Source: Prosthecodimorpha staleyi
GTDB lineage: Bacteria > Pseudomonadota > Alphaproteobacteria > Rhizobiales > Ancalomicrobiaceae
DNA: 46,392 nucleotides
Assembly (NCBI RefSeq): GCF_018729455.1
Contig: NZ_JAHHZF010000019.1
Location: forward strand, 1 to 46,392
Direction of reading: 5' to 3'
Part shown: piece after piece, positions 18,698 through 42,688 of the stretch
How positions within the stretch are numbered: the first letter of the stretch is position 1
Layout: every line of letters starts with the position of its first letter
The notes under the pieces: generated by a model
Told to the model about the DNA's origin: nothing
The model's input: only the letters and a program-made list of their open reading frames with translations
Database searches by the model: none
Made by a program: the position numbers and the translations under genes

Positions 18698-18730
18698 CGC
18701 GAAGTCTCCGATCATCGGGGCGGAGACTAG

Positions 18731-20650
<1,920 letters not shown>

Positions 20651-20752
20651 TCTGGCGGCTTGCGATCGGTCTCCTTCCGCGTGGCGGAACGCGCGGGGGG
20701 ATGGCCGGTCCCCCGAACCCGACCGGCGCCGCAACCCTGTCGCGCCGGACCT

Positions 20753-20783
20753 GCCCGGCCGGAGCCTTGCGCGCCGGCCGGGC
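20753..20783 (+). other. Perfect 10-bp hairpin between nirS and nirE
   Basis: GCCCGGCCGG and CCGGCCGGGC flank an 11-nt loop. No T-run follows, so a simple terminator is unlikely. It lies about 100 bp after nirS and 35 bp before nirE. A stable stem there could shield the nirS message from 3' decay and give more NirS than biosynthesis enzymes. Confidence 0.6.
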
Positions 20784-20818
20784 CCTATTCCCCGCAAGGT
20801 CGAACGGGAGACGACCTC

Positions 20819-21598: not shown

Positions 21599-21929
21599 CC
21601 CGGCGGCGGTTCCCGGCGCGGTGCTGGCGATCGTTCTGGCCGTCCTCGCGCTCGGCCCCGTCCTGCCGCGCGCCGCCGAGCCGCGTGCGGTCCGTCCGCT
21701 CGAGGACCTGGTCCGCCAGGATTGCGGCTCCTGCCATGGCCTGACGCTGAAGGGCGGGCTCGGCCCGCCGCTGCTGCCGGCCGCGCTCGACGGCAAGCCC
21801 GCCGAGGCCCTCGCCGAGGTCATCCTCGACGGCATTCCCGGAACCCCCATGCCGCCCTGGCGCGGCCTCCTCGACGACGGGGAGGCGCGCCGCATCGCCG
21901 CCATGCTCAAGAAGGGCCTTGCCCCATGA
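21564..21929 (+). CDS. nirC: Small c-type cytochrome NirC
   Basis: The protein has 121 residues with an N-terminal hydrophobic export segment (about 13-33) and one heme site CGSCH (Cys54, Cys57, His58). GTPMPPW supplies the probable Met axial ligand. NirC-type cytochromes pass electrons to NirS or to heme d1 maturation steps in the periplasm. GGGAGG stands 7 bases before the ATG. It overlaps nirE upstream and nirF downstream by 4 bp (ATGA). Confidence 0.9.
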   Translation: MRTPPSPSRRSSPAAVPGAVLAIVLAVLALGPVLPRAAEPRAVRPLEDLVRQDCGSCHGLTLKGGLGPPLLPAALDGKPAEALAEVILDGIPGTPMPPWRGLLDDGEARRIAAMLKKGLAP

Positions 21930-25684: not shown

Positions 25685-25888
25685 TCAGTTTCGACCCGAA
25701 TTCTTGGCTGCGACGATGGCCTGTGCGAGCGCATCCCGGTCGCCGACATGGTTGGCGAGGATCAGGATCAGGCGGGCGTTGAGGGCGTCGCTCTCGGCCT
25801 TGGTCAGGCCCTGATGGGCCGCGATCAGGTCGGCGTAGAAATCGTCCGCGCCGGCGATGTTGGGTGTCGTGACGAGGTCGGCCATCAT
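25685..25888 (-). CDS. DUF2783 small protein
   Basis: The protein has 67 residues and contains LNARLILILANHVGDRDAL, which I associate with the DUF2783 family. Tandem ATGs at 25888 and 25885 follow GGGAGGG. The first overlaps the stop of the upstream monooxygenase by 4 bp (ATGA), pointing to translational coupling and perhaps a subunit or chaperone role for that enzyme. It is highly helical with no metal or nucleotide motif. Its function is unknown. Confidence 0.8.
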   Translation of the reverse strand: MMADLVTTPNIAGADDFYADLIAAHQGLTKAESDALNARLILILANHVGDRDALAQAIVAAKNSGRN

Positions 25889-27498
25889 GCCCTCCCGGTG
25901 GCCTTGGCGACGGCGGCGCGGACTTCGCCGTCGTCGAAATGCTCCCAGCGCGCGGCGACATGCTGGTCCGGCCGGATCAGGTAGACGGCGGAACGGGCCG
26001 CGCCGAGCCAGCGCTCGGCCAGCCGGCCGTCGTCGCCCGCCGTGGAAAGCGCCAGCCGCGTCACCGGGATGCCGTCGGCATCGAGCGTGTCGGGGGCGTC
26101 GGCATCGAGCGTCAGGAGCTGGAAGCCGCCGCCGAGCCGGTCGATCAGCCAGCCGCCCGGGATCGGCGCATCGGCGGCCGGGGCGCCGGGCCGGGTGCGC
26201 GCCGGCATGGCGGGATGGTCGGGGCCGTTCAGCGGCGAGCCGTCATAGGTGCAGGGCACCGACAGGCGGCCGGAATTGACCATCGGCCGGAAGGCCGGGA
26301 AATGCTCGGAGAGATCCAGCACCGCGTCGCGGAACAGCCGGCTCACTTCCGATTTCGGGGTGATGAAGTCGGTCGAGCGGGTCGAGTTCAGGATGTTCTC
26401 GTCGGCGCCGTGGATGCGCTCGGTGTCGTAGCTGTCGAGCAGGCCGTCGGGTGCCTTGCCGGCCAGCACCAGGGCGAGCTTCCAGGCCAGGTTGTCGGTG
26501 TCCTGCAGGCCGGAATTGGCGCCGCGCGCGCCGAAGGGCGAGACCTGATGGGCCGCGTCGCCGGCGAAGATCACCCGGCCGTGTCGGAACTTCGGCATCC
26601 GCCGGCACTGGAAGGTGTAGATCGAGATCCACTCGATCTCGAATTGCGCGTCCTCGCCCAGGAAGGCCTTCAGCCGCGGGATGACCTTCTCGGGCTTGGC
26701 CTCCTCGCGCTTGTCGATGTCCCAGCCGAGCTGCAGGTCGATGCGCCAGACATTGTCCGGCTGCTTGTGCAGAAGCGCCGACTGGCCGGGATTGAACGGC
26801 GGATCGAACCAGAAGCGGCGCTCGACGGGGAAGTCCGGGCTGTCCTCCATGACCACGTCGGCGATCAGGAAATTGTCCTCGAAGACGCGACCGACGAAGT
26901 CGAGCCCCAGCATGGTGCGGATCGGCGAGCCCGCGCCGTCGCAGGCGATCAGCCAGTCGCAGTCGATCCGGTAGGGCCCGTCCGGGGTGTCGACGGTCAG
27001 CTGGACGCCGTCTTCCTGGCGCCGGATCACCACCACCTTGCTGCCGCCGCGCAGCTCGATCGGCCGCCCCTCGGCCTGCAAGGCGTGGACCCGATCGACC
27101 AGGAACTTTTCGAAATGGTATTGCTGCAGGTTGATGAAGGCCGGCCGCTTGTGCCCGCTCTCCGGCAGGAGATCGAAGGCATAGACCTGCCGGTCGCGGA
27201 AGAAGACCTTGCCCCGGTTCCAGATCACGCCCTTGTCGACCATCGGATCGCCGCAGCCGAGCCGGTCGAGGATTTCGAGCGGCCGCTTGGCGAAACAAAT
27301 CGCGCGCGAGCCCCAGCTGACCTTGTCGTTCTCGTCGAGGACCACGACGGGCACGCCGTGCTGGACGAGGTCGATCGCCGCGGCGAGCCCGACCGGTCCG
27401 GCTCCGACCACCACCACCGGCCGCCGGACCGGCCCCGCCGCGCCCTGGTCGGGCGAGCGGACATAGGGATAGAGCGGCGTCTCGAAGATCCTGGACAT
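25885..27498 (-). CDS. FAD-dependent aromatic monooxygenase (MhpA/PheA-like)
   Basis: The predicted protein has 537 residues. The dinucleotide motif VVVVGAGPVGLAAAIDL is near residue 30, the DG motif is CDWLIACDGAGSPIR, and the GD motif lies in VIFAGDAAHQVSPFGARGANSGLQD. These are the class A flavin monooxygenase fingerprints, closest in style to 3-(3-hydroxyphenyl)propionate hydroxylase. The ATG at 27498 was preferred over the GTG at 27507 because GGGAGG lies just before it at a workable distance. Adjacency to homogentisate genes suggests ring hydroxylation of a related aromatic acid; the substrate is inferred only. Confidence 0.9.
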   Translation of the reverse strand: MSRIFETPLYPYVRSPDQGAAGPVRRPVVVVGAGPVGLAAAIDLVQHGVPVVVLDENDKVSWGSRAICFAKRPLEILDRLGCGDPMVDKGVIWNRGKVFFRDRQVYAFDLLPESGHKRPAFINLQQYHFEKFLVDRVHALQAEGRPIELRGGSKVVVIRRQEDGVQLTVDTPDGPYRIDCDWLIACDGAGSPIRTMLGLDFVGRVFEDNFLIADVVMEDSPDFPVERRFWFDPPFNPGQSALLHKQPDNVWRIDLQLGWDIDKREEAKPEKVIPRLKAFLGEDAQFEIEWISIYTFQCRRMPKFRHGRVIFAGDAAHQVSPFGARGANSGLQDTDNLAWKLALVLAGKAPDGLLDSYDTERIHGADENILNSTRSTDFITPKSEVSRLFRDAVLDLSEHFPAFRPMVNSGRLSVPCTYDGSPLNGPDHPAMPARTRPGAPAADAPIPGGWLIDRLGGGFQLLTLDADAPDTLDADGIPVTRLALSTAGDDGRLAERWLGAARSAVYLIRPDQHVAARWEHFDDGEVRAAVAKATGRA

Positions 27499-27623
27499 CC
27501 TGGTCACCCTCCCGGGTTTCGCGTCGCTCCGGCTTGTCGCGCCGGTTCCGATCGTCCGCGCGTGCGACTCTCCTCCGCACGCGGCATTTGAGCTATCGTC
27601 GTCGGGCGATGGAGGACCCGGCG

Positions 27624-27866
27624 ATGAACGTCACCGTGCAAGACATGAAGGCTAACCTCGCCGAGATCCTGCGCCGCGCGGCCGAAGGCAAGGAGATCCG
27701 CGTGACGCTCGATGGCGGGCCATATGTCCGCATCGCGCCGGATCCTGGGGCGGCAGCGGCCGCCTCTACAGGCTCGCTGCCGAGGGTCGGCGCCCTGAAG
27801 GGGCAGATCAGGATGGCCGAAGATTTCGACGTGCTGGGTCCGGAATGGGACGCGTATGTTCGATGA
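27624..27866 (+). CDS. Phd/YefM-type antitoxin
   Basis: The predicted protein has 80 residues. MNVTVQDMKANLAEILRRAAEGKEIRVTL is the standard Phd N-terminus (DNA-binding and dimerisation), and the C-terminal half ends with MAEDFDVLGPEWDAYV, a likely toxin-binding tail. GGAGG stands 8 bases before the chosen ATG. It would neutralise and co-repress a VapC-type toxin, but the gene downstream is only a fragment. It runs opposite to the catabolic operon in which it sits. Confidence 0.87.
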   Translation: MNVTVQDMKANLAEILRRAAEGKEIRVTLDGGPYVRIAPDPGAAAAASTGSLPRVGALKGQIRMAEDFDVLGPEWDAYVR

Positions 27867-28030
27867 TCGGCCCGCTCCTCGCCGATACCCGCATCTTGCA
27901 TTGGTCCTTGAACGGTGATCGGCGGCACGATCCGTTCGACCGCTTGATCATCGCGCAGGCCAAGCACGAGGGATGGCCGCTGATGACGGCCGATCCGGCG
28001 TTCCGGCGCTATGACGTGGCCATCGCCTGA
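27863..28030 (+). pseudogene. VapC-type PIN toxin with internal in-frame deletion
   Basis: The start ATG overlaps the antitoxin stop (ATGA). Only 55 residues remain, against about 130 in a whole VapC. The first part LLADTRILHWSLNGDRR is a PIN N-terminus with the first acidic residue. It runs directly into HDPFDRLIIAQAKHEGWPLMTADPAF, a PIN C-terminus with the last acidic residues. About 75-80 central residues are missing, including the middle catalytic acids, yet the frame is kept. An active RNase is very unlikely. Confidence 0.8.
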
Positions 28031-28037
28031 CATCGCC

Positions 28038-28991
28038 TCACCCCTGCAGCGCCGCCCACATGGCGCGGTCGCGGTCAGCCGTCCAGATGCGCGGATGGTC
28101 GAGGCCGAGCGCCTCGTCATAGGCCCGGGCGACGTTGAAGGGCAGGCAGTGCTCGTAGATGGCGTAGGTCGAGAATTTCGGATCGCACACCGCCCGGCAG
28201 GCCGCCATCGCCTCCTTGAGCGTGCCGCCGCCGAGCGCGACTTCGGCGACCGGCCGGTAGGTCGAGGCGACGAAATCGCGGGTCAGCGCCAGCGCCTCCT
28301 GCACCTTGGCCTCGCCGACCAGCGCGTCGCCGCGGCCGGGCGAGAGCGCGCGCGGGCGATAGGCCGCGATGGCGTCGAGGGTCGCCGGCCAGTCGCCGAA
28401 ATGGCCGTCGCCGCAATAGCAGGCGGAATGGTATTCGACGATGTCGCCGGAGAACATCACGCCCTGGTCGGGCACCCAGGCGACGATGTCGCCGGCCGTA
28501 TGGGCGCGGCCGAGCCAGACCAGATCGACCCGGCGGCGGCCGAGATGCAGCGTCATCCGGCGCTCGAAGGTCATGGTCGGCCAGGTCAGGCCGGGGATCG
28601 ACTCATGCCCCCGGAACAGGCGCGGGAAGCGGCCGAACTCGGAGTCCCAGTCCTCCTGGCCGCGCTCCTGGATCATGGCCCGGCAGGTCTGCGAGGCGAT
28701 GATCTCGGAGGCGCCGTAGGCGGAGGCGCCGAGCACGCGCACGGCGTGATAATGCGACAGGACGACATATTTGATCGGCTTGTCGGTGACCGTGCGGATC
28801 TGCTCGATCACCTTGCCGGCCATGGCCGGTGTCGCCTGGGCGTCGACCACCATCACGCTGTCGTCGCCGATGATGACGCCGGTATTCGGATCGCCCTCGG
28901 CCGTGAAGGCGTAGAGATCCCGGCCGATCTCGGTGAAAGAGGTCTTCTTCTCAGTCATGTCGCCCGTGGAGGCGAAGGCCTTGGCGGTCAT
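28038..28991 (-). CDS. MBL-fold hydrolase with altered metal motif
   Basis: The protein has 317 residues. It has the metallo-beta-lactamase fold pattern: NTGVIIGDDSVMVVDAQ, then YVVLSHYHAVRVLGA in place of HxHxDH, a later GRAHTAGDIVAWV and MFSGDIVEY. The Asp and third His of the HxHxDH motif are replaced by Val and Arg, so a canonical two-metal site is not expected. It lies 6 bp after maiA and belongs to the homogentisate operon. It may hydrolyse a thioester or lactone intermediate, or act with one metal; the function is unknown. Confidence 0.82.
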   Translation of the reverse strand: MTAKAFASTGDMTEKKTSFTEIGRDLYAFTAEGDPNTGVIIGDDSVMVVDAQATPAMAGKVIEQIRTVTDKPIKYVVLSHYHAVRVLGASAYGASEIIASQTCRAMIQERGQEDWDSEFGRFPRLFRGHESIPGLTWPTMTFERRMTLHLGRRRVDLVWLGRAHTAGDIVAWVPDQGVMFSGDIVEYHSACYCGDGHFGDWPATLDAIAAYRPRALSPGRGDALVGEAKVQEALALTRDFVASTYRPVAEVALGGGTLKEAMAACRAVCDPKFSTYAIYEHCLPFNVARAYDEALGLDHPRIWTADRDRAMWAALQG

Positions 28992-28997
28992 GGGATC

Positions 28998-29642
28998 CTA
29001 CTCGGCGTCGGCTTGGGCTTCGGGGGCGGCGGCCGCGAAGGCCGGATGCGCGCGGGCGGCTTCGTCCGCGGCGCGGATCATCGGATAGGGCGTCAGGTCG
29101 AGTTCGAAGCGGCGGGCGTTGTAGACCTGCGGCACGAGGCAGATGTCGGCGAGGCTCGGGGTATCGCCGACCGCGTAGCGGCCGGCCGAATGGGCGAGGC
29201 GCGCCTCGATCGCCGTGAAGCCGGTTCCGATCCAATGCCGGGCCCAGGCGGCCCGCGCCGGCGCGCCCGCACCCCAGTCGGCGGTCAGCTTGTCGAGGAC
29301 GCGCAGATTGCCGAGCGGGTGGATGTCGCAGGCGACCGTCAGGGCGATCTCGCGCGCCACCGCCCGGTCGCGCGGGGCGGCCGGCAGGAGCGGCGGCTCC
29401 GGCCAAGTCTCGTCCAGATACTCGATGATCGCGAGCGACTGGGCGAGCGAGAAGCCCTCCTCCTGCCAGACCGGCACCAGCCCGGACGGGTTGAGCCCGA
29501 GATGGTCGGCCCCGCGCTGCTCGCCCTTGCGCAGATGCACGGCGGCGTGGCGCGGGGTCAGGCCCTTCAGATTGACGGCGATGCGCACCCGGTAGGCCGC
29601 CGAGGAGCGCCAGTAGCCGACCAGGAGCGGTGCGTCAGCCAT
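28998..29642 (-). CDS. maiA: Maleylacetoacetate isomerase
   Basis: The protein has 214 residues with the zeta-class glutathione transferase layout. The N-terminal thioredoxin fold has YWRSSAAYRVRIAVNLKGL, where SS holds the glutathione-activating serine, then NPSGLVPVW and QSLAIIEYLDE. The helical C-terminal domain has the GDTPSLADICLVPQVYNARRF segment. It converts maleylacetoacetate to fumarylacetoacetate with glutathione. It overlaps the end of the FAH gene by 8 bp. Confidence 0.95.
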   Translation of the reverse strand: MADAPLLVGYWRSSAAYRVRIAVNLKGLTPRHAAVHLRKGEQRGADHLGLNPSGLVPVWQEEGFSLAQSLAIIEYLDETWPEPPLLPAAPRDRAVAREIALTVACDIHPLGNLRVLDKLTADWGAGAPARAAWARHWIGTGFTAIEARLAHSAGRYAVGDTPSLADICLVPQVYNARRFELDLTPYPMIRAADEAARAHPAFAAAAPEAQADAE

Positions 29643-30678
29643 TGCCGACCTCGGTGCAGCCTTCGTCCGTCATTGGCGCCACCGTCTGCTCGATCGCGCC
29701 GAAGATCGAATGGCCCCTGGCGTCCTTCATCGAGATGCGCACGGTGTCGCCGTAGCGCAGGAACGGGGTCGCCGCCTTGCCGGTGCGGATCGTCTCGACG
29801 GTGCGGATCTCCGCGATGCAGGAATAGCCGACGCCGCCCTCGGCGATCGGCCGGCCCGGGCTGCCGTCCGGATCGCGGTTGGAGACCGTGCCCGAGCCGA
29901 CGATCGTGCCGGCGGCGAGCGGCCGGCTCTTGGCGGCATGCGCGACCAGGGTCGGGAAGTCGAAGGTCATGTCGACGCCGGCATCGGCCTTGCCGAAAGG
30001 CTGGCCGTTGACGGAGACGAGCAGCGGCAGGTGCACCTTGCCGCCGTCCCAGGCCGGGCCGAGTTCGTCGGGCGTCACGGCGACCGGCGAGAATGCGCTC
30101 GACGGCTTGGCGTGCAGGAAGCCGAAGCCCTTGGCGAGTTCCGGCATCACCAGATTGCGCAGCGACACGTCGTTGACCAGCATGATCAGCCGGATCGCAG
30201 TCGCCGCTTCCTCGCGGCTGGCGCCGAGCGGCACGTCGTCGACGATCACGGCGATCTCGCCTTCCAGGTCGATGCCCCAATCCTCGCTCGGCATGCGGAT
30301 GGGTCCACGCGGGGCCAGGAAGCTGTCGGAGCCGCCCTGATACATCAGCGGGTCGGTCCAGAAGCTCTCCGGCATGGCGACGCCGCGCGATTTCCGCACC
30401 AACTCGACATGGTTCACATAGGCCGAGCCGTCCAGCCACTGATAGGCGCGCGGCAGCGGCGAGAGCGCGTCATGCTCGTGGAAGCGCTCGCTCGGCAGGG
30501 CGCCGAGGTCGAGGTCGTGGGCGAGATCGGCCAGCCGCGGACCGACATGGGCCCAGTCGTCGAGGGCGGCCTGCAGGGTCGCGGCGATCGGCCGGGCCGA
30601 GACGCAGCGGGTCAGGTCGCGCGAGACGACGACCAGCATGCCGTCGCGCGTGCGGTCCTTGAGGGTTGCGAGTTTCAT
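29635..30678 (-). CDS. Fumarylacetoacetate hydrolase family protein
   Basis: The protein has 347 residues. The metal-binding acidic residues are visible in WGIDLEGEIAVIVDD, and GTIVGSGTVSNRD is the catalytic-domain signature of the FAH fold. It is shorter than the mammalian-type enzyme of about 420 residues, but this shorter form is common beside hmgA in proteobacteria. Context points to cleavage of fumarylacetoacetate to fumarate and acetoacetate. It starts 4 bp after hmgA and overlaps maiA. Confidence 0.92.
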   Translation of the reverse strand: MKLATLKDRTRDGMLVVVSRDLTRCVSARPIAATLQAALDDWAHVGPRLADLAHDLDLGALPSERFHEHDALSPLPRAYQWLDGSAYVNHVELVRKSRGVAMPESFWTDPLMYQGGSDSFLAPRGPIRMPSEDWGIDLEGEIAVIVDDVPLGASREEAATAIRLIMLVNDVSLRNLVMPELAKGFGFLHAKPSSAFSPVAVTPDELGPAWDGGKVHLPLLVSVNGQPFGKADAGVDMTFDFPTLVAHAAKSRPLAAGTIVGSGTVSNRDPDGSPGRPIAEGGVGYSCIAEIRTVETIRTGKAATPFLRYGDTVRISMKDARGHSIFGAIEQTVAPMTDEGCTEVGNG

Positions 30679-30682
30679 GAGA

Positions 30683-32017
30683 TCACTCCCCGGCCCGGGC
30701 GCCCGGCGCCGGCCATTCCGGCCGCGCCGGATCGAAATTGCGGTCGAGCCCGTTCCAGCACTCCGGATAGTCGTCCTGGAGGCCGGGCAGCCGGGCGGCG
30801 AATTCGGTCAGCTGCTGCGGGAAGCGCGTCTCGAACATGAAGGCCATCGTGCCCGTGAGCTTGACCGGCTTCAATTCGGAGAAACTCGCCTTGTCGAAGG
30901 CCGGCTTGTCGGGGCCGTGCGGCAGCATGCAATTGTGCAGGCTCATGCCGCCCGGCACGAAGCCGGTCTCCTTGGCGTCGTACTGGCCGTAGATCAGCCC
31001 CATGAACTCGCTCATGATGTTCATGTGGTACCAGGGCGGGCGGAAGGAATGTTCCGCCACCATCCAGCGTTCGGGGAAGATGACGAAGTCGATATTGGCC
31101 GTGCCGGCCTCGCCGGAAGGCGCGGTCAGGACCGTGAAGATCGACGGATCGGGATGGTCGAACAGCAGCGCGCCGACCGGCGAGAAGGTCCGCAGGTCGT
31201 ATTTGTAGGGCGCGTAGTTGCCGTGCCAGGCGACCACGTCGAGCGGCGAATGGCCGATCTCGCAGGTGTTGAAGCTGCCGCACCACTTGACCGTCAGCCT
31301 GCAGGCGGTCTCCTTCTCCTCGAAGGCCGCCACCGGCGTCTTGAAGTCGCGCGGGTTGGCGAGGCAGTTGGCGCCGATCGGGCCACGTTCGGGCAGGGTG
31401 AACTTGGCGCCGTAATTCTCGCAGACATAGCCGCGCACCGGACCGTCGACGAGTTCGACCCTGAATTTCATACCGCGCGGGATGACGCAGATCTCGCCCG
31501 GACCGACCCGGATGCGGCCGAGCTCGGTGAAGAAGACCAGGTCGCCCGACTGCGGCACGACCATCAGTTCGCCGTCGGCATTGTAGAAATAGTCGTCGAC
31601 CATCGAGGCCGTGACCAGCATGACATGGGCCGCCATGCCGACCTGGGTATAGACGTCGCCGGCCGTGGTCATGGTCCTGAGGCCGGTGACGAAGGTCAGC
31701 GCCTCGTTCGGCATCGGCACCGGATCCCAGCGCAGCGGCCCGAGCGGCAGTCCGTGATCGACGATATGCGGCGCGGTCTTCCAGAAAGGCACCTCGACCC
31801 TGCGGAAGCGGCTGGTGTGCCGGACCGAGGGACGGATGCGGTAGAGCCAGGAGCGCTCGTTGGTGCCGCGCGGGGCCGTGAAGGGCGAGCCGGACAATTG
31901 CTCGGCATAGAGCCCGTAGGCGCAGCGCTGCGGGGAATTCTGGCCCTGCGGCAGGGCGCCGGGAGCCGCTTCGGTCTCGAAATCGTTACCGAAGCCGGGC
32001 ATGTAGCCAAGCGTCAT
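30683..32017 (-). CDS. hmgA: Homogentisate 1,2-dioxygenase
   Basis: The predicted protein has 444 residues. It opens with [17 protein letters not shown], with [24 protein letters not shown] after it. The Fe(II) ligands fall in [18 protein letters not shown] (His and Glu) and [11 protein letters not shown] (His). It opens the homogentisate ring to maleylacetoacetate, the key step of tyrosine and phenylalanine degradation. GAGGAGG stands about 9 bases before the ATG at 32017. It heads the operon and is divergent from a MarR regulator gene. hppD, which makes homogentisate, is not in the window. Confidence 0.97.
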
Positions 32018-32198
32018 CGTCGTGCCTCCTCTCACGCGCGTGTCCTCCGGCCTGCGCTTTTTGAGGGGTCCGGCCGCCGTCATCGGCGGACCCCGCGCTT
32101 CGGCCCGATCGGGTCCGTTCGTCTCCCCGATCCGGAATCGCCGGTCCTGCCGGCGATGCTTGCAACCGGCGGAAACGCACAGCATACTCACCCGACGA

Positions 32199-32211
32199 TC
32201 ATATCATGTGA
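32199..32211. promoter_or_regulatory. Putative MarR operator
   Basis: TCATATCATGTGA is an imperfect 13-bp palindrome with one mismatched pair, next to the start codon of the MarR gene and within the hmgA/marR control region. MarR proteins often bind such short palindromes near their own start. The assignment is by position and symmetry only. Confidence 0.4.
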
Positions 32212-32212
32212 A

Positions 32213-32779
32213 ATGAAACGGCTGTCAACCATGGCCGAACCGCCCGCCGCCGCCCCGCCCGCAGACAGGCCCGTCGCCGCCCCGACGACGGCCGCCCGGA
32301 TGGCGACCCGCTCCGCCGGCTTCGATCTGGAGCGGTTCCTGCCCTATCGCCTGAATGTCCTGGCCAGCCGGGTCAGCCGCGATCTCGCGCGCCAATACGA
32401 GCGGAAGTTCGGCATCTCGATCCCGGAATGGCGGGTGCTGGCCCATCTGGCGCAGAATCGCGACGTCTCGGTGCGAGAGATCCACGAGCGCGTCGACATG
32501 GACAAGTCCAAGGTCAGCCGGGCCGCCGCGCGGCTCGAAAGCCTGGCGCTGATCGAGAAGAAGGAACATGCCGGCGACCGCCGTCTGGTCGATCTCCGGC
32601 TGACGGCCCGCGGCCTGGCGCTGTTCGCCGAGATCGCTCCGCTCGCCCTGGCCTTCGAGGCCGATCTGTTCGCCGGGCTCGATGCCGAGGAGCGGCGCAT
32701 CTTCGAACGCGTGATGACGAAGTTGCTCGGCGAGCCGGCCAGCGGGTCGATGGCCGCAGGCACGGATCCGTCCGACTGA
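32213..32779 (+). CDS. MarR-family transcriptional regulator
   Basis: The protein has 188 residues. A winged helix is clear: ISIPEWRVLAHLAQNRDVSVREIHERVDMDKSKVSRAAARL is the recognition region, followed by the wing KKEHAGDRRLVDLRLT. An N-terminal tail of about 35 Pro/Ala-rich residues precedes it. Alternative starts are ATGs at 32213 and 32231. It is divergent from hmgA and is the likely repressor of the homogentisate operon, probably released by an aromatic pathway compound. The ligand is inferred, not seen. Confidence 0.88.
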   Translation: MKRLSTMAEPPAAAPPADRPVAAPTTAARMATRSAGFDLERFLPYRLNVLASRVSRDLARQYERKFGISIPEWRVLAHLAQNRDVSVREIHERVDMDKSKVSRAAARLESLALIEKKEHAGDRRLVDLRLTARGLALFAEIAPLALAFEADLFAGLDAEERRIFERVMTKLLGEPASGSMAAGTDPSD

Positions 32780-33134
32780 ACGGGGCGTCCAGAGCCGCTG
32801 CCATACCGCCCTGCGCCTATCCGGTGGCGGCCTGGCGATCGTGCCTTGGGGCAGGGGCCTCCGTCGGCCGGCAATCCCCTCAGCGGAACTGCGGATGGGA
32901 GGTCCCCGATCGGGGCTATTCCGACATTACATAACATTCAAAAATTATCACATTTGCGTTTGTCGGTATTCCGTCCGGGACGCATGTACGGACGGCGCGC
33001 GCCCTTGCCGGTCGGCGGGGCTCAGCGACGTGCCGGACGCATGACAAGAAGCCCGGCTGCAACCATGCGGCCGACAAGGACATCCCTCGATCCCGACCCC
33101 TCGGGCACGAGGCGAACCGAGGAAATGACCCGCC
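32780..33134. other. Intergenic with an A/T-rich block (32921-32966)
   Basis: No gene is evident. Within otherwise GC-rich DNA, 32921-32966 is sharply A/T-rich and bounded by the inverted pair CCGACA (32921-32926) and TGTCGG (32961-32966). It lies about 170 bp before the start of the large repeat protein. It may be its promoter or a binding site for an A/T-preferring protein. Confidence 0.5.
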
Positions 33135-36100
33135 ATGCTGACGACCCGCGCCGAACAGGCACGAGCGGAGCGGCCGCCGCGTCGCGCCCGCTTCAGAACG
33201 CTCGCCATCGCCGCCGGCCTCACCGCCCTCGCCGGCCTGACCCCTCCGGTCTGGGCGCAGGGCGGCGACACCACGCCGATGCGGCCCGGCGAGGCTTTCC
33301 TGACCCGGTTTTCCGGAACCGCAGCCGGCGCCGGCGGACGCGCCATGATCGATCTCGACGGGACCGTCGGCAGCATTGTCGACCTGCGCAATCCGGGCTT
33401 TCCGGCGCAGGGGCAGCATTGGATCGACGAGCCGCAGCGCCTGCCGGTCACCGCCCGCGATGTCGGGCAGGTCTATGGCGTCGCCCTGGACGACCAGTCG
33501 CCGCCCAACGTCTATCTGACGGCGACCGCGGCCTTCGGCCTGCATCGCACCGAGGACGGCCGCGACTGGCTGCCGGGGCAGTGGGGACCGGGCGGTGCCG
33601 GTCCCGGTGCGGTCTGGAAGCTCGATGCGCGGCGCAACTATGCGCCCCAGTTGCTGGCGACCGTGACGCTCGACGGCCGGCCGAACAGCGCCGCCGCGCT
33701 CGGCAACATCGCCTTCGACAAGGCGCATCGGCAATTGCTGGTCTCCGACCTGGAGACCGGTATGATCCACCGCCTGTCGCTCGACGGTCGCGATCTCGGC
33801 CGCTTCGATCACGGCGTCGAGGGCCGTGCCGCCTATTTCGACGTGCCGGCCGGGCGCAACGCCGCTCTGCCGCCGGTCGCCTTCGATCCGGCCAGCCGTG
33901 CCCGCATCGACGATTGCGCCGAGGGCCGCTTCACCGAGACGCCGGCCTGCTGGAACATCGCCGATCCGCGCCGCCGCATCTGGGGGCTCGCCGTGCGCAC
34001 TGTCGGCACGCAGCGCGAGACCCGGCTCTACTATGCGGTCTGGAGCGGCCTGCCGCTCGGCGCGCCCGGCTTCGCCGACCTGCCCGAGACCGAGAAGACC
34101 GGCACGGTGTGGTCCGTGCGGCTCGGCCCAGACGGCGGCTTCGACCGGTCGAGCGTCCGGCGGGAGCTGGAGGTGCCCGAATTCTTCGTCGGCCAGGACG
34201 ATTTCCGCCGGGCCGGTCCGAGCTGGCCGGTCGCCGACATCGCCTTTCCGGACTGCATCGACCAGGGCATCATGATCCTGTCCGAGCGCGGCGGCCTGCG
34301 CAATCTCGGCCTCGACGCCGAGGAGCCCTTCGCCACGCCGCGGGAATCGCGCGTGCTGCGCTACGAGATGGGCGAGGACGGCGCCTGGAAGGCGGTCGGC
34401 CGCTACGATGTCGGCTTCTCCGAACGCAAGCCGCCGGCGGTGCAGCCCTTCCTGCGCGCCGGCGCGTCCGGCGCCGCGGCCTTCGGCTACGGCTATGACG
34501 AGAAGGGCGCGGTCGATCCGACGCGCGCGAACCAGAGCCTGTGGATGGCCGGCGACCATCTCTGCTCGCCCGAGGGTCCCTGCTTCAATCCCGGCACCGG
34601 CGCTTTCGACGACGACAGCCAGGTGCACGGCATCCAGGGCACGCCGGAGCCGGCCTTCGCCGAACTGGCGCCGAACGGCGCCTTCCGGGTCTATCCCGTG
34701 AAAGGACGCGTCACCAATCCGGACGGCCCGGCACAGTCCTACATGATCGACGCCGACGTGAATGTCGACGCGGAGGGCAAGCCCAACCCGGCCGAACTCG
34801 CCCGCAACGACGCCACCATGATCGGCGACATCGCCATCTGGCAGCCCTGCGAGGGCCAGGCGGCCGCCGTGCCGCCGCCCCCGCCGCCGGCCGAGATCGT
34901 GCGCGGGCCGGTCGACCTCTGGATCCGCAAGACCGGCTTCGAGGAGTGCGATTTCGACGGCATCTGCAGCTTCACGGTCACCATCTCGGCGATCGGCGAG
35001 GGCACCTGGGTGGCGCCGATCTTCATCCGCGACTTCATCCCCGAGGGCGCCGAACTGGTCTCCTTCACGCCCGCCGATCCGTGGATGTGCGACGTGATCG
35101 ACGCGCTCTTCTGCTTCCGCCCGACCGTGACGCTGCAGCCGGGCGAGGACATCGTGCTGCGCATCCGCATCCGCATGCCGGAGGCGATCCTGGTGCGTGC
35201 ACCGATCGACCTGCAGAACTGCATCGCGCTGGAATGGCCTTTCGCCGATCCCGACGACGGTCCGGCGATCCAGCTCGCCACCCGCAACGTTCTGATCCTG
35301 ATGGGCTATCTGCAGCGCCGGGAGCTCGCGATCGAGCCCGCCATCCAGCGCTTCGAGCGCGACATGCGGCTGCCGCAGACCGGCCGGATCGGGCCGCGCC
35401 TGACCGAAGCCCTGTTCGGCGGCCTCGCCCGCATGATCGGCGACAACGATCCGCAGAACGATCTGGCCTGCGCGCCGTTCCGCGTTCCGCCGCGGCCGCC
35501 GGTCTTCGACGGGCATTCGCGCCGCGATACCCATCGCCGGTTCGGATCGGTCGAGCACAGCCGCTGGCAGACCCATCGGCGCTGGGACAGCCCGGCCCAC
35601 AATCCCTGGCAGAGCCATCTGCGCTGGGGATCGGTGGTCCTGCCGCCCTTCGACCTGCACGATCGTGCCGAAACCCACGCCCGCTGGGGTTCTGTCTGGC
35701 ACAGCCGCGTGCGCACCCATCGCCGGGACGGCTCCTTCCCGCCCCAGCACGACCTGCGCCTGTCGCATGACCGGTTCGACTCGTTCCACTCGCTGGCCAT
35801 GTCGCACTATCGCGGCAGTTCGATCCACAAGGTCGAGCGCTCGCACTACCGGTTCAGCTCGATCCACGGCAAGAAGGAGTCGCATGATCGTTGGGGCTCG
35901 CTGCACGACCGGCGCGAGACGCACCGCCGCGACGGCTCGATCCATGCCCGCTCTCTGTCCCATACCAAGGCACAGTCGCTGCATGCGCTCGACCGGTCCC
36001 ATGCCAAGGCCGGATCGACCCATGGCCGGCGCGAGTCGCTGGCGGCGGGCGGCTTCGGCGATCAGCATCACACTCGCGCCCAGTCGCACTTCAAGGCGGC

Positions 36101-37046
36101 TTCGGCCGGCCATGATCCGTCCAGCAACCCGTTCCACGACAAGCGGGCGAGCCTGGGCTTCCTCGGCAAGGACAAGGACAAGGACAAGGGCAAGGGCAAG
36201 GGCAAGGACGGCCACGACGACCAGTCCGGTCAGGGCGGTCAGGGGCAGTCCGGTCAGGGTGGCGACATCCGCCACAACCGGCTCCTGAGCCAGAGCCAGC
36301 GCACCGGCGACGACAAGGGACCGAAGGGCCATACCGTGGTCCAGTCGCGCGGCGGATCACTGCATTCGACCGCGGCCAGCGCGGCGGCGACCACCGGGCC
36401 GACCATCGTCCACACCGTCGCGGCGAGCCGCGGCACGACGACGGGTCACTCCAAGGCGGCCAGCCGCGGCGGCCACAGCACGGCGGAAAGCGCTGCGCTG
36501 ACCGGTCCGGTCATCGTGCACTCCAAGGCGGCGAGCCGCGGCCCGATCGTCCACAGCAAGGCCGCCAGCCGCGGTCCGGTGATCGGGCCGAGCCACGATC
36601 ACGGTCCGACCATCGTGCACAGCAAGTCCGCCAGTCGGGGCGGTTCGGGCGGCCATTCGAAGGCGGCCAGCCGGGGTATCACCGGCCCGCAGACCGGCGG
36701 CCACAGCCACGATGCCGGCCCGGTCCATTCGAAGAAGGCCAGCAAGGGCTCCTCGGGCGGCGGCAGCTTCGGACCGGCTCCCTTCGGGGGTGGCGGCGGC
36801 CATGCCAAGAAGGCCTCCAAGGGCTCCTTCGGCGGCGGCAGCAGCGGCGGCGGCGGTGTGCCTTTCGGCGGCGGCGGGCATTCCAAGCAGGCGAGCAAGG
36901 GCTCGTTCGGCGGCGGCCACAGCCATGCGGCACCGTCCGGCTTCGGCGGCTTCTCCAAGCCGCAGAAATCCGGTGGCGGCAGCTTCGGCGGGTTCGGCGG
37001 CGGAGGCGGCCACAGCAAGCCGGCCAGCAAGGGCAAGCTGTTCTGA
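33135..37046 (+). CDS. Large exported repeat protein, function unknown
   Basis: The protein has 1303 residues. An export signal with RRARFR followed by a hydrophobic core ends at VWA-QG (about 42). Residues 60-560 look like a beta-propeller-type domain (LLVSDLETGMIHRLSLDG and similar strand patterns). A proline run (580-585) precedes a DUF11-like beta domain (about 592-690) with extra cysteines. A peptidoglycan-binding-like segment follows (about 722-762: AIQRFERDMRLPQTGRIGPRL). From about 792 the rest is repeats: a 13-residue His/Ser/Arg array, a DKDKGKGK stretch, HSKAASRG copies and Gly-rich HSKKASKG blocks to the C-terminus. The start lies about 13 bases after GAGGA. I do not recognise the whole; surface, matrix or metal-binding roles are possible. 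Confidence 0.8.
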   Translation: MLTTRAEQARAERPPRRARFRTLAIAAGLTALAGLTPPVWAQGGDTTPMRPGEAFLTRFSGTAAGAGGRAMIDLDGTVGSIVDLRNPGFPAQGQHWIDEPQRLPVTARDVGQVYGVALDDQSPPNVYLTATAAFGLHRTEDGRDWLPGQWGPGGAGPGAVWKLDARRNYAPQLLATVTLDGRPNSAAALGNIAFDKAHRQLLVSDLETGMIHRLSLDGRDLGRFDHGVEGRAAYFDVPAGRNAALPPVAFDPASRARIDDCAEGRFTETPACWNIADPRRRIWGLAVRTVGTQRETRLYYAVWSGLPLGAPGFADLPETEKTGTVWSVRLGPDGGFDRSSVRRELEVPEFFVGQDDFRRAGPSWPVADIAFPDCIDQGIMILSERGGLRNLGLDAEEPFATPRESRVLRYEMGEDGAWKAVGRYDVGFSERKPPAVQPFLRAGASGAAAFGYGYDEKGAVDPTRANQSLWMAGDHLCSPEGPCFNPGTGAFDDDSQVHGIQGTPEPAFAELAPNGAFRVYPVKGRVTNPDGPAQSYMIDADVNVDAEGKPNPAELARNDATMIGDIAIWQPCEGQAAAVPPPPPPAEIVRGPVDLWIRKTGFEECDFDGICSFTVTISAIGEGTWVAPIFIRDFIPEGAELVSFTPADPWMCDVIDALFCFRPTVTLQPGEDIVLRIRIRMPEAILVRAPIDLQNCIALEWPFADPDDGPAIQLATRNVLILMGYLQRRELAIEPAIQRFERDMRLPQTGRIGPRLTEALFGGLARMIGDNDPQNDLACAPFRVPPRPPVFDGHSRRDTHRRFGSVEHSRWQTHRRWDSPAHNPWQSHLRWGSVVLPPFDLHDRAETHARWGSVWHSRVRTHRRDGSFPPQHDLRLSHDRFDSFHSLAMSHYRGSSIHKVERSHYRFSSIHGKKESHDRWGSLHDRRETHRRDGSIHARSLSHTKAQSLHALDRSHAKAGSTHGRRESLAAGGFGDQHHTRAQSHFKAASAGHDPSSNPFHDKRASLGFLGKDKDKDKGKGKGKDGHDDQSGQGGQGQSGQGGDIRHNRLLSQSQRTGDDKGPKGHTVVQSRGGSLHSTAASAAATTGPTIVHTVAASRGTTTGHSKAASRGGHSTAESAALTGPVIVHSKAASRGPIVHSKAASRGPVIGPSHDHGPTIVHSKSASRGGSGGHSKAASRGITGPQTGGHSHDAGPVHSKKASKGSSGGGSFGPAPFGGGGGHAKKASKGSFGGGSSGGGGVPFGGGGHSKQASKGSFGGGHSHAAPSGFGGFSKPQKSGGGSFGGFGGGGGHSKPASKGKLF
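35508..36032 (+). repeat. Coding tandem repeat, 13-residue (39-bp) period
   Basis: Residues 792-966 of the large exported protein repeat with a core period of 13. Clean examples are IHKVERSHYRFSS, IHGKKESHDRWGS, LHDRRETHRRDGS, IHARSLSHTKAQS and LHALDRSHAKAGS. The consensus is [IL]H-x4-[ST]H-x-[RK]-x2-S. The earlier units are longer and Trp-rich (THRRWDS, SHLRWGS). DNA copies are diverged, so the array is old rather than freshly amplified. Confidence 0.85.
36408..36677 (+). repeat. Coding repeat, HSKAASRG family
   Basis: Residues 1092-1181 of the large exported protein contain at least six copies or variants of [VG]HSKAASRG, often preceded by GP-x-I-V. Spacers vary in length. It is a distinct repeat class from the 13-residue array but keeps the His-Ser and basic-Ser pattern. 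Confidence 0.85.
36723..37046 (+). repeat. Coding repeat, Gly-rich HSKKASKG family
   Basis: Residues 1197-1303 alternate Gly/Ser/Phe-rich linkers (SFGGG, PFGGGG) with five HSKKASKG-type blocks: VHSKKASKGSS, GHAKKASKGSF, GHSKQASKGSF, a degenerate FSKPQKSGG and the terminal GHSKPASKGKLF. The protein ends on this motif. Confidence 0.85.
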
Positions 37047-37054
37047 GTGAAAAT

Positions 37055-37082
37055 GGCGCCGGACCGGTCGCGATCCGGCGCC
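37055..37082 (+). terminator. Hairpin after the large repeat gene
   Basis: A perfect 9-bp stem GGCGCCGGA/TCCGGCGCC with a 10-nt loop begins 9 bp after the stop codon. It lacks a T-run, so it may work as an mRNA end-protecting stem or a weak terminator. Confidence 0.5.
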
Positions 37083-37261: not shown

Positions 37262-38299
37262 ATGTGGCTTTCTCGCATGCTTCTCGCCGGAGCCGCCGGC
37301 CTCATCGCCCTGGCGCTCGTTGCCGCCAGCGCCGCCGTCGCGGCCGATGCCCGGCCCGATTGGCCGAAGCTCCACACCAACGAAGAGATGATCGACGACG
37401 CCACGCGGGCGCCGTCGATCGACACCAGGGACCCGCTTGCGGTGCTCGACTTCGTGCTGAAGAGCCTGCCGGCGCGCGTGAAGGTCCATCCGACCGAGAA
37501 CTACTACTATTTCTGGTTCTGGCACGACCACGTCAAATGGGCCGGAAACCTGCGTCTCGACCCGCAGGAACGCGACCGTGGTCTGGTCAACTTCGCCTAT
37601 TTCGAGGATTACACGGAGTGGGCGGCGGAGAGCAGGGTCAACCATCGCCTGCTCGGGGCCGAAGACGGCGTCACCGTCGAGAAGCTGGCGCCACTCGTCT
37701 ACCGGGTCACGTTCCGCGGCACCGCGGTCGAATTCGCGCTCAACGACCTCTCCGAGACCCGTCCGCCGGAGGGATTCCTGCGCCCGACCGAGGTCTATGT
37801 CGGGCCGGTGCTCGACGATTCCGGGCTGCCCTTCTATCTGGTCTGGAACAAGGACCAGAAGCTCTTCCACTATATCCTGAACGAGCAGGCCCCCGCTGCG
37901 GAGGCCTGGCGCGCCTCGCGCATCTCGCCGCGCATCCTGATCGGCAACCGGACCGGCTTCGCGCTCTATCGGGACCGCTACCGCGACCGTAAGATCCTGA
38001 TCGGCATCTATGCCTCCAACGCGGCGGTGAACAATTACTATGACGGTCCGTTCGATCAACTGCCCGACAATTTCATCAAGGACGATACGCTGCACGACGC
38101 CATCCTGGCGCTCGAACCCGGTCTGAAGGGCAAGATCGACCGCTTCGGCAATTCGCCGGGCGGCAAGGAGCGCTTTTTGATCGGCCCCTACATGCAGTGG
38201 CGGACGGAGGAGGATCTCGCCGTCGTCAAGCGCTGCGCGGCCGATCCGAAGATCAAGGGCGAACGCTGGTACGGCTGCTTCGTGATCGAGCGGCAATAG
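37262..38299 (+). CDS. Exported protein of unknown function
   Basis: The protein has 345 residues with a clear signal peptide (MWLSRMLLAGAAGLIALALV..., cleavage near AVAA-DA, about residue 28). The mature part is rich in aromatic residues: ENYYYFWFWHDHVKWAGNLRLD, NNYYDGPFDQLPDNF and IGPYMQWRTEEDLAVVKRC. Two cysteines near the C-terminus (KRC and YGC) may form a disulfide. I do not recognise the family. It follows the repeat protein by 215 bp on the same strand and may be functionally linked, but a hairpin and GC repeat lie between them. Confidence 0.82.
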   Translation: MWLSRMLLAGAAGLIALALVAASAAVAADARPDWPKLHTNEEMIDDATRAPSIDTRDPLAVLDFVLKSLPARVKVHPTENYYYFWFWHDHVKWAGNLRLDPQERDRGLVNFAYFEDYTEWAAESRVNHRLLGAEDGVTVEKLAPLVYRVTFRGTAVEFALNDLSETRPPEGFLRPTEVYVGPVLDDSGLPFYLVWNKDQKLFHYILNEQAPAAEAWRASRISPRILIGNRTGFALYRDRYRDRKILIGIYASNAAVNNYYDGPFDQLPDNFIKDDTLHDAILALEPGLKGKIDRFGNSPGGKERFLIGPYMQWRTEEDLAVVKRCAADPKIKGERWYGCFVIERQ

Positions 38300-40326: not shown

Positions 40327-41193
40327 TCAGCCGAAGACCGCGACGACCAGGTCGCGCAGGCCCTGCTTGACATCCTCGTCGTCGCTCAGCGGCTCGATCA
40401 GCGCGGCCTCGATCGCGTCCTCCAGGCGGGCGCCGTCGCGCACCAGCATGGCGCAATAGACCAGGAGGCGCGTCGAGCAGCCCTCCTCGAGATCCTGGCC
40501 CTTGAGGGCCCGCAGGCGGCCGCCGAGCGCGACCAGCGGGCGGCAGCGGTCGAGGTCGAGGCCGGTCTCGGCAGCGACGATCTCGGCCTCGGCCACGGGC
40601 GGCGGATAGTCGAAGGCGATCGACAGGAATCGCTGGCGGGTCGAAGGCTTCAGTGATTTCAGGAGGTTCTGGTAGCCCGGATTGTACGAGACGACGAGCA
40701 TGAAGTCGTCCGGCGCGGCCAGCGTCTCGCCGGTCCGCTCCAGAGGCAGCAGGCGGCGGTCGTCGGTCAGCGGATGCAGCACGACGGTCACGTCCTTGCG
40801 CACCTCGACGATCTCGTCGAGATAGGCGATGCCGCCCCGGCGCACCGCGCGGGTCAGCGGCCCGTCCGTCCACACCGTCTCGCCGCCCTTGAGCAGGAAG
40901 CGGCCGGTCAGATCGGCGGCGCTCAGGTCGTCGTGGCAGGCGACGGTGTCGAGCGGCAGGCCGAGCCGGGCCGCCATATGGGCGACGAAGCGGGTCTTGC
41001 CGCAGCCGGTCGGACCCTTCAGCAGGAGCGGCAGCCGCAGCCGGAAGGCGCGTTCGAACAGCGCGCATTCCGAACCGATCGGGCGGTAGTAGGGGATTGC
41101 CGGGGTCTGGTCCCCCGCAACGGAGACCGCGGGGCCGGTGGCGGCCCCCGCGGGGGCCGCCTTCGCGTTCTGGAACAGAAGGGGCGCGTTCAT
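40327..41193 (-). CDS. norQ: MoxR-type AAA ATPase NorQ
   Basis: The protein has 288 residues. Walker A is GPTGCGKT (60-67), Walker B is GGIAYLDEI, and VVSYNPGYQ and STRQRFLSIAFDYP mark the MoxR sensor and arginine-finger regions. It drives FeB loading into NO reductase together with NorD. It starts 12 bp after norB. Confidence 0.95.
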   Translation of the reverse strand: MNAPLLFQNAKAAPAGAATGPAVSVAGDQTPAIPYYRPIGSECALFERAFRLRLPLLLKGPTGCGKTRFVAHMAARLGLPLDTVACHDDLSAADLTGRFLLKGGETVWTDGPLTRAVRRGGIAYLDEIVEVRKDVTVVLHPLTDDRRLLPLERTGETLAAPDDFMLVVSYNPGYQNLLKSLKPSTRQRFLSIAFDYPPPVAEAEIVAAETGLDLDRCRPLVALGGRLRALKGQDLEEGCSTRLLVYCAMLVRDGARLEDAIEAALIEPLSDDEDVKQGLRDLVVAVFG

Positions 41194-41205
41194 GTGGGCA
41201 TCCCC

Positions 41206-42561
41206 TCATTCGGCCGGCGTGGCGGCGGGGGCGTCGGGGCCGCGGCCGATCACCTCGGCCCGGCGCGGGACGAGCACGGAATAGAGGAACAGGATGGCGC
41301 CGATCACCACCGCGACGCCGGAGCCGAAGCGCATCTGGTAGAACAGCGCCAACTGGTCCTGCACCTCCATGAAGCCCTGTCCGAGCACGCGCTGCAGATG
41401 GACCTGGACCACGCCGGCGAAGGTCAGCGTGAAGGTCATGAACGACATGGCGCCGGCCATGATCCAGAAGGAGATCATGTTGAGCACCTGGTTGTAGGGT
41501 GCCCGGCCGAGCAGGTGCGGCATGGCATAGGTGATGATCGCCAGGTTCAGGCAGACATAGGCGCCGAAGAAGGCGAGATGACCGTGCGCGGCGGTGACCT
41601 GGGTGCCGTGGGTATAGTAGTTGACGCCGTGCAGGGTGTGCATGAAACCCCAGATGCCGCCGCCGAAGAAGGCCAGCACCGCGCAACCGAGGCTCCACAG
41701 GAGGGCCGCATTGTTGGGATGCTCGCGCCGGCGCTTCCAGACCATCGCGAAGGTGAACAGCACCATGGCGAAGAAGGGCAGGATCTCCAGGCTTGAGAAG
41801 ATCGAGCCGACCCACTGCCAGTATCCCGGCGCGCCGATCCAGTAATAGTGGTGGCCGGTGCCGAGCAGGCCGGTGAACAGCGACAGCGCGACGATGGCGT
41901 AGAGCCACTTCTCGACCACCTCGCGGTCGACGCCGGTCATCTTGAGCATCAGGAAGGCCAGGATGGCCGCCATGACCAGTTCCCAGACGCCCTCGACCCA
42001 GATGTGGACGACATACCACCAATAGAGCTTGTCAACGCCGAGGTTGTCCGGATTGTAGAGGGCGAACAGGAAGAAGACCGCGATGCCCCAGAGCCCCAGC
42101 AGCAGGACGTTGGTGATGGCGGTTTTGCGTCCCTTCAGCACCGTGACGGTGACGTTGAACAGGAAGATCAGCGCCGCCACGACGATGCCGAGCTTGACCC
42201 AGAGCGGCTGCTCCAGGAACTCGCGACCCTCATGGATGCGGAACAGATAGCCGACCACGGCGCCGAGCGTACCGACCACCAGGATGACCAGCTGCAGATA
42301 GGCGAGCCGGGTCGAGTAGATCTCGGTCTCGCTCTCCTCCGGGATCAGATAGTAGGCGGCGCCGAAGAAGCCGAGCAGCAGCCAGACGATCAGCGCATTG
42401 GTATGCAGCATGCGCACGATGTTGAACGGCAGCAATACGGACAGCGTATCCGGCACGATATAGATCCAGCCGGCCAGAAGACCGGCCGTTACCTGGATGG
42501 CGAAGAGCGCGAGGGCGACGGCGAAATAGGCCAGGGCTACCCGCTGGGTTTGATACTTCAT
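41206..42561 (-). CDS. norB: Nitric oxide reductase subunit B
   Basis: The predicted protein has 451 residues and about 12 membrane helices. Heme and FeB ligands are visible: RMLHTNALIVW (heme b His), WYVVHIWVEGVWE (His and Glu of the FeB site), GTGHHYYWIG (two His) and AAHGHLAFFGAYV (heme His residues). NorB reduces two NO to N2O in the inner membrane with electrons from NorC. It is the short, cytochrome-c-dependent form, without the quinol-oxidising N-terminal extension. AGGAGG lies 7 bases before the ATG. Confidence 0.97.
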   Translation of the reverse strand: MKYQTQRVALAYFAVALALFAIQVTAGLLAGWIYIVPDTLSVLLPFNIVRMLHTNALIVWLLLGFFGAAYYLIPEESETEIYSTRLAYLQLVILVVGTLGAVVGYLFRIHEGREFLEQPLWVKLGIVVAALIFLFNVTVTVLKGRKTAITNVLLLGLWGIAVFFLFALYNPDNLGVDKLYWWYVVHIWVEGVWELVMAAILAFLMLKMTGVDREVVEKWLYAIVALSLFTGLLGTGHHYYWIGAPGYWQWVGSIFSSLEILPFFAMVLFTFAMVWKRRREHPNNAALLWSLGCAVLAFFGGGIWGFMHTLHGVNYYTHGTQVTAAHGHLAFFGAYVCLNLAIITYAMPHLLGRAPYNQVLNMISFWIMAGAMSFMTFTLTFAGVVQVHLQRVLGQGFMEVQDQLALFYQMRFGSGVAVVIGAILFLYSVLVPRRAEVIGRGPDAPAATPAE

Positions 42562-42688
42562 GGGACCCTCCTGGTGGTTCGACCGGTACGGATGATCGGC
42601 ATCCGTCCCGGAGGTCAGAACCACGATGTCTTTGACCGAGAGGTCGGGAACGGGACGGCCGGACGGCGTGCGGCCGGGACGGGACCTG

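Follow-up and report, generated by a model that had tools for sequence, protein, structure and literature searches.

We analysed a 46,392-nucleotide stretch of Prosthecodimorpha staleyi DNA (contig NZ_JAHHZF010000019.1, assembly GCF_018729455.1; hereafter the window), in which a gene for a large exported protein is directly followed by a gene for a smaller secreted protein that we call the partner. The large protein ends in an array of the histidine–serine/threonine motif H-x4-[S/T] (HX4S), and our comparison of related loci shows that the partner goes with this repeat and not with the N-terminal head of the protein. The locus comprises the following features:

33,135–37,046, + strand: gene for the exported HX4S-tail protein, 1303 residues (open reading frame (ORF), relatives, guanine-plus-cytosine (GC) content by codon position)
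33,135–33,257, + strand: Sec-type signal peptide, about residues 1–41 (hydrophobic run, VWA-Q; identified by eye)
33,261–34,880, + strand: propeller-like head, about residues 43–582 (14-member alignment; Foldseek on a weak model)
34,905–35,504, + strand: DUF11-like domain with an inserted peptidoglycan (PG)-binding-like segment, about residues 591–790 (alignment, Pfam)
35,280–35,420, + strand: PG_binding_1-like insertion, sub-threshold, about residues 716–762, limits estimated (Pfam stretch 735–760)
35,514–37,043, + strand: HX4S tail of 43 H-x4-[S/T] units, residues 794–1303, first unit at H794 and last at H1293
37,055–37,082, strand unassigned: inverted repeat of 12 pairs directly 3′ of the stop codon, terminator-like on the − strand according to the scan
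37,262–38,299, + strand: partner gene, encoding a 345-residue protein of an undescribed family directly downstream (signal peptide by eye)

The + strand of 33,135–37,046 is the coding strand, because the 1303-residue protein is matched in genomes of its genus and family and GC at the three codon positions is coding-like (0.69/0.54/0.89 over 33,345–37,046). All three genomes of the genus, its own among them, encode the protein, the other two with 96% and 66% identity; within the family it is found in 11 of 15 genomes, again counting its own. A relative with 93–96% identity in the best segment is encoded by Prosthecodimorpha (Prosthecomicrobium) hirschii (record NZ_LJYW01000001.1), a dimorphic stalked, budding alphaproteobacterium of the order Hyphomicrobiales (PMC4653794). 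An antisense open frame of 1138 codons (32,916–36,332, − strand) overlaps the gene and looks like a high-GC artefact; the codon-position caller preferred the + strand. Our data thus agree with the original prediction, made from the DNA alone, that this gene encodes a 1303-residue exported protein without a named full-length family: we found no whole-protein family in Pfam, NCBIfam or PHROGs, the sole match being a sub-threshold one to PG_binding_1. The proposal that its function is undescribed also stands, with neither a whole-protein family nor an enzyme match for the head.

The tail had been described as merely low-complexity, and here we found instead a strict register. Ser or Thr lies at exactly +5 of 43 of the 51 tail histidines, as against a mean of 9.8 and a maximum of 22 in 20,000 shuffles of the tail; at each of the remaining offsets from +1 to +14, no more than 20 histidines have a Ser/Thr, and in the first 793 residues of the protein just one of seven histidines has one at +5. 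Across 26 tails of related loci, which were chosen for carrying the repeat, +5 Ser/Thr follows a mean of 94% of histidines, and the next most frequent offsets, −3 (39%) and +13 (38%), fit a neighbouring unit. A pooled logo of 23 tails (leaving out L020, L115 and L121) places 785 of 836 histidines in a unit, with Ser in 723 and Thr in 62. The near-duplicate L028 (= L017) and L021, which has a truncated head, were dropped from the data set. Spacing between units is irregular: the 762 steps include 154 of 6 residues, 76 of 7, 280 of 8 and 98 of 11. This variation speaks for a short linear motif and against the period of a solenoid.

Position +2 from the unit histidine is Arg or Lys in 33 of the 43 window units, compared with a background of 0.15, making H-x-[R/K]-x-x-[S/T] the commonest unit. 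This position is Pro in L112 (93%) and L019 (81%) and mixed in L118–L127. The charge of the tails also varies widely, from 74 Lys/Arg versus 33 Asp/Glu in the window to 82 versus 75 in L114. Short tandem arrays at the DNA level are present in the distal part of the window tail. In total, HX4S was found in 11 families of one order, two of them represented by small three-unit proteins.

Comparisons of related tails indicate that the motif is maintained while its surroundings drift. In seven tail pairs, unit histidines are kept in 570 of 583 cases and unit Ser/Thr in 568 of 584, figures inflated by an aligner that prefers His–His matches, versus 164 of 409 for other Ser/Thr and 1551 of 2785 for the remaining class of residues. 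Between the window protein and its 66% identical relative, 38 of 39 unit histidines are kept, 15 of them through a different codon, as are 37 of 39 unit Ser/Thr (14 through a different codon), compared with 186 of 355 other tail residues. Because unit residues are kept, often through different codons, while the rest of the tail drifts, HX4S units are selected at the protein level.

We searched 297 genomes of the order twice, once with the head and once with the partner, and counted the overlap by hand: the head occurs in 89 genomes, the partner in 39, and both in 27. We then listed by hand the 24 heads that we read with an adjacent partner and the 11 partner-less heads for which both the C-terminus and the 3′ flank were in hand. 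All 24 partner-adjacent heads carry an HX4S tail, as against none of the 11 partner-less heads (Fisher p = 2.4e-9, ignoring shared ancestry) and none of four others; the partner-less heads whose full sequence was read have Cys-rich or other tails instead. Three HX4S heads have no partner on their contig, and all three stop at contig ends; in the same genomes, the partner lies near the start of a second contig, behind an HX4S fragment (L020/L138, L110/L109 and L141/L140). The head L142 lacks the repeat; its genome has a divergent partner on a separate contig (L104).

Starting from the partner gives the same picture. We defined a repeat ORF by a strict rule, requiring four or more units, shuffle p < 0.005 and over 4 times the expected number, and by a relaxed rule applied upstream, requiring two or more units, and put more weight on the strict rule together with inspection. 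Among 47 partner genes, an adjacent repeat ORF was found for 34 by the strict rule, 38 by the relaxed rule and 40 by the two combined; the relaxed match in L092 is a 45-residue ORF and probably due to chance, so that about 39 of 47 partners have a repeat protein nearby. The relaxed rule has a real background, with matches for 43 of 296 other genes, many of which adjoin the very repeat ORF that lies next to the partner (Fisher p = 1.3e-19, again ignoring shared ancestry). The partner therefore goes with the repeat and not with the head. The original prediction had treated head and tail as one functional unit and had asked whether the tail always accompanies the head and the downstream gene. The tail does accompany that gene, but it is probably absent from most homologues of the head, with HX4S in 0 of 15 heads read without an adjacent partner; this is one half of the evidence that the prediction itself had named as refuting it, and the proposed head–tail unit is not supported. 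Since the partner follows the repeat rather than the head, our data suggest that the functional unit is the H-x4-[S/T] repeat plus the partner.

The proteins that carry the repeat differ. The 835-residue protein that precedes the partner in L106 has no detected head; in it, a DUF11/PG-binding composite is joined to 54 units. In L095–L098 and L101, the partner adjoins two or three small divergent secreted proteins (HWRWGS...HNRARS...), and in L105 it lies in tandem right behind a small HX4S protein; similar proteins are found near the partner in L093 and L107. The two in L107 (8105–8777) are Lys-rich, have three of three histidines each in H-x4-S, and lie just upstream of a divergent partner. 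These small secreted carriers have about 100 residues and 2–7 units. In 15 of them near partners, chosen for the motif, 68 of 93 histidines are in the motif and 61 of the 68 units have Arg at +2. A weakly similar small protein encoded elsewhere in its genome (L164, E = 8.6e-4) has no HX4S; it and L158 are small His/Arg-rich proteins that match the HX4S small proteins at E of about 8e-4 and have no motif array. Because the carrier can be a propeller-like head, a DUF11/PG-binding composite or a small secreted protein, the constant parts of the system are the motif and the partner, with the head as an exchangeable carrier.

The head itself is conserved, with 14 aligned sequences at 36–72% identity to the window protein and repeated blade-like beta blocks. 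An AlphaFold model of the head and DUF11-like domain from a five-sequence alignment has a mean predicted local distance difference test score (pLDDT) of 44. In a Foldseek search with this weak head model, propellers (NHL, YWTD/LRP and PON) make up most of the 50 best matches listed, with a best E of 2.6e-6 (probability 1.00) at query template modelling (TM) scores of just 0.16–0.23. A Pfam search of the 14 head members gave weak hints in two single members (DUF6923, E = 0.015; SBBP, E = 0.78), and a sequence search against the PDB gave no match. The propeller-like head of the original prediction thus survives as the best reading of a weak model, and is not proven. We rejected the alternative that the head is a known enzyme, as there is no Pfam, NCBIfam, PDB or PHROGs match beyond these weak hints. 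The same head also occurs with Cys-rich tails bearing CPxGT-type segments and no adjacent partner (L023, L025 and L026, as read; L129–L131 by Cys count), which apparently form a second tail class.

The PG-binding-like segment was predicted to follow the DUF11-like domain. It is present, and our alignment with L018, L022, L023 and L025 places it within that domain instead, in its last loop, with the closing ND-x-AC strand after the insert. Neither part reaches its Pfam gathering score in the window protein: DUF11 (PF01345) scores 11.7 of 24.6 bits (E = 0.33) and PG_binding_1 (PF01471) 17.2 of 23 bits. Relatives score higher, with L112 passing the DUF11 cut-off at 29.4 bits and PG_binding_1 detected in three of eight other proteins (E = 3.9e-10 to 1.4e-14; 54.4 bits in L106). 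In the five-member alignment of the window protein with L018, L022, L023 and L025, the best PG_binding_1 E is 1.6e-10. A profile of the DUF11/PG-binding composite matches many repeat-tailed relatives and several proteins with other tails. Because its PG_binding_1 part is below threshold, peptidoglycan binding by the window protein is doubtful.

The partner has no match in Pfam, an E of 0.11 at best in NCBIfam, nothing above noise in PHROGs and no PDB match by sequence up to E = 10. A Pfam search of 38 partner alignment members gave nine families with one member each (best E = 0.018), which we read as noise, and a profile comparison of partner and head showed no relation. Across 47 partner sequences, conservation reaches 93% or more at 44 positions, 13 of which are Asp, Glu, Arg or Asn. 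Conserved motifs include P-T-E-x-Y-x-Y-F-x-F, G-N-x-R, D-x-S, N-x3-DGPFDQLPD and two Cys, and this pattern, including N-x3-DGPFDQLPD, is as would be expected of an active or binding site. In a class-level sample, the partner occurs in 2 of 385 genomes, the window’s own included, and a tblastn search of plasmids with the partner found none. A second, divergent partner paralogue lies on a P. hirschii contig (L108:5791–6948, genome G001), with no clear HX4S protein beside it and an 80-residue neighbour that has one unit.

We compared the pair with three known systems. In the Hxs system, proteins with a His-Xaa-Ser motif are putatively matured via HxsB and HxsC (PMC9062424). The two systems are alike in having a His/Ser repeat protein, co-conserved neighbour genes and a PG_binding_1-like part, and the PG-binding parts of L106 and L112 match HxsA (TIGR03979) at E = 5e-9 and 1.4e-8, far below the cut-off. 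The cut-off of 121.65 bits was not reached: the window protein has no match, and the best relative scanned scores 36.4 bits, in the PG-binding part only. The spacing is H-x-S in Hxs versus H-x4-S here (Ser/Thr at +2 of a mean 0.09 of histidines in the 26 tails, versus 0.94 at +5), and the Hxs counterpart of our secreted, undescribed partner is a radical SAM enzyme. HxsC (TIGR03977) is over its cut-off in 2 of 20 HX4S/partner genomes (G043 and G219) and not in the window’s genome (G000), while weak matches below the cut-off occur in all 20 of these genomes and in all 14 control genomes. Because the spacing differs, scores fall below the cut-off and HxsC exceeds its own in just 2 of 20 genomes, we judge from the sequences that the HX4S pair is not a member of the Hxs system. 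G043 and G219 (L134 and L133) combine HxsC over cut-off with the partner and small HX4S proteins, and both His/Ser systems may co-exist there.

The second system is that of Bacillus spores, in which the CotH kinase polyphosphorylates CotB and also phosphorylates CotG, all encoded in the same cluster (PMC7821199). Ser-rich repeat proteins clustered with the kinase that modifies them resemble our pair; here the repeat is different, the host is Gram-negative and the protein is exported, and Pfam detected no CotH-type kinase domain, either in the partner itself or in the 38 members of its alignment. Third, NDR/LATS kinases need a His at −5 in HXRXXS/T (PMC4320110). The most frequent unit in the window matches this string, and 33 of 43 units have Arg or Lys at −3 of the Ser/Thr; this likeness is one of motif only, as these are eukaryotic kinases, none was detected here, and several HX4S lineages have Pro or another residue at −3. 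Literature searches for HXRXXS-type motifs gave, among the matches listed, NDR/LATS/YAP and plant kinase sites and no bacterial repeat, and searches for Hxs names and for His/Ser repeats in this order or with DUF11 found no description, with subscription papers mostly outside their scope. HX4S and the partner are thus apparently an undescribed two-gene module.

Other genes surround the pair in the window. Denitrification-type genes lie on both sides: for a radical SAM protein and two proteins with a cytochrome D1 domain on one (17,486–23,140), and for a CbbQ/NirQ/NorQ-type AAA protein and a NorB-like COX1-family protein on the other (40,327–42,624); we saw no conserved link between these flanks and the HX4S pair. 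Homogentisate/aromatic degradation genes (HgmA, FAD-binding monooxygenase) occupy 25,885–32,779, ending in a MarR-family gene (32,300–32,779) that adjoins the HX4S gene. Beyond the pair no shared neighbourhood was found: flanking genes differ in other genera, with sharing only within one genus (g3). A promoter scan of the window found nothing, an Rfam scan found one tRNA and nothing else, and the scan for terminator-type inverted repeats found 1 where 2.3 were expected by chance.

Given the motif as observed, how well it is conserved and its genetic link to the partner, we judge it most likely, with a probability of about 0.45, that the partner is an enzyme modifying the Ser/Thr of HX4S units in a two-gene extracytoplasmic module. 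The first gene would export a protein with a tail made of copies of one linear motif, this motif being carried by whatever the lineage has: a propeller-like head, a DUF11/PG-binding composite or little beyond a signal peptide. The second would export the conserved partner, which would recognise the unit and modify its Ser/Thr; the recognition signal would be the His at −5, frequently joined by a basic residue at −3. Such an activity may turn the tail into a polymer with dense modifications at the cell envelope, comparable to the polyphosphorylation of the Ser-rich CotB repeats by CotH on spores. We favour modification because the hydroxyl is as fixed as the His, because the residues between them are nearly free except for the frequent basic residue at −3, and because HXRXXS/T with its −5 His is a known enzyme code, that of the NDR/LATS kinases (PMC4320110). 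CotH with CotB and CotG also provides a bacterial precedent for pairing Ser-rich repeat proteins with a kinase from their own cluster in building a surface (PMC7821199). More tentatively, and with the odds clearly against it, the partner may found a new extracytoplasmic Ser/Thr-modifying family in Hyphomicrobiales, phosphorylating or otherwise O-modifying, that reads the −5 His convergently with NDR/LATS and whose substrates are HX4S arrays ranging from ~100-residue proteins to 60-unit polymers on propeller-like or PG-anchored proteins.

Several observations weigh against an enzymatic partner. No kinase, transferase or other enzyme family was detected in it with Pfam, NCBIfam, PHROGs or the PDB. 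Its AlphaFold model, from five sequences, is poor (mean pLDDT 53, the better half mostly beta), and a Foldseek search with this poor model gave nothing at E ≤ 0.001. The 47 sequences contain no near-invariant His, and their pair of near-invariant Cys has the look of a disulphide. The Pro at +2 in L112 and L019, and the mixture there in L118–L127, would not be favoured by a basophilic kinase, nor are we aware of a phosphate donor in the periplasm that such an enzyme could use. Eight of the 47 partners (L092, L094, which is borderline, L100, L103, L104, L108, L111 and L137) have no convincing repeat protein nearby; a strict-rule match in L111 is 3.9 kb away and was not counted, and in L137 a head fragment lies about 6 kb from the partner with its C-terminus off the contig, so that this locus is uninformative. 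Finally, loci were found via the head or the partner, so that, two protein searches excepted, HX4S proteins with neither may be missed.

The main rival, which we consider possible if rather unlikely, is that the partner is a receptor, chaperone or cross-linking scaffold on which the units dock, the pair building a multivalent surface layer or matrix. A linear motif in many copies with variable linkers suits docking, as do the mostly beta prediction for the better half of the partner model and the PG-binding insertion in several carriers. In our judgement, however, a docking motif will rarely hold just two residues, five positions from each other, constant in about 94% of its copies, and small proteins with 2–7 units would offer little multivalency. 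Those same small proteins are the basis of another idea, that they act as cationic antimicrobial or signalling peptides, with the partner as their immunity or maturation protein and the large tails derived from them. Small secreted His/Arg- or Lys-rich HX4S proteins do lie near the partner in L095–L098, L101, L105, L093 and L107, but arrays of 40–60 units on proteins of ~900–1600 residues, many with the PG-binding insertion, would be left unexplained, and we regard this as very unlikely.

The original prediction, by comparison, had the tail bind metals or polyanions, which would leave the partner to handle metals or polysaccharides, either separately or as an auxiliary. The window tail is indeed His-rich and cationic (74 Lys/Arg versus 33 Asp/Glu). 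Yet Ser/Thr, a poor metal ligand, is as strict at +5 as the His itself (568 of 584 versus 570 of 583), and tail charge varies widely (82 versus 75 in L114) while the motif stays constant. A generic binding tail explains neither the exact +5 Ser/Thr nor the tie to one secreted gene, and we think this account improbable. Least credible of all, and contradicted by the data, is that a low-complexity tail rich in His, Ser and Lys arose by chance or by repeat expansion at the DNA level: although the distal tail contains short DNA tandem arrays, the maximum in 20,000 shuffles was 22 against 43 observed, the codons used for His and Ser differ both inside the window and from species to species even though the amino acids are conserved, and 26 tails of differing composition share the spacing.

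A fixed-spacing, two-residue code tied to one undescribed secreted gene is the sign of a dedicated extracytoplasmic modification or recognition system. The finding gives a functional hook to genes without a family, and indicates that low-complexity tails can hide an exact code. If the Ser/Thr modification we favour is true, the HX4S module would represent a new post-translational modification of the cell envelope and a new enzyme family.

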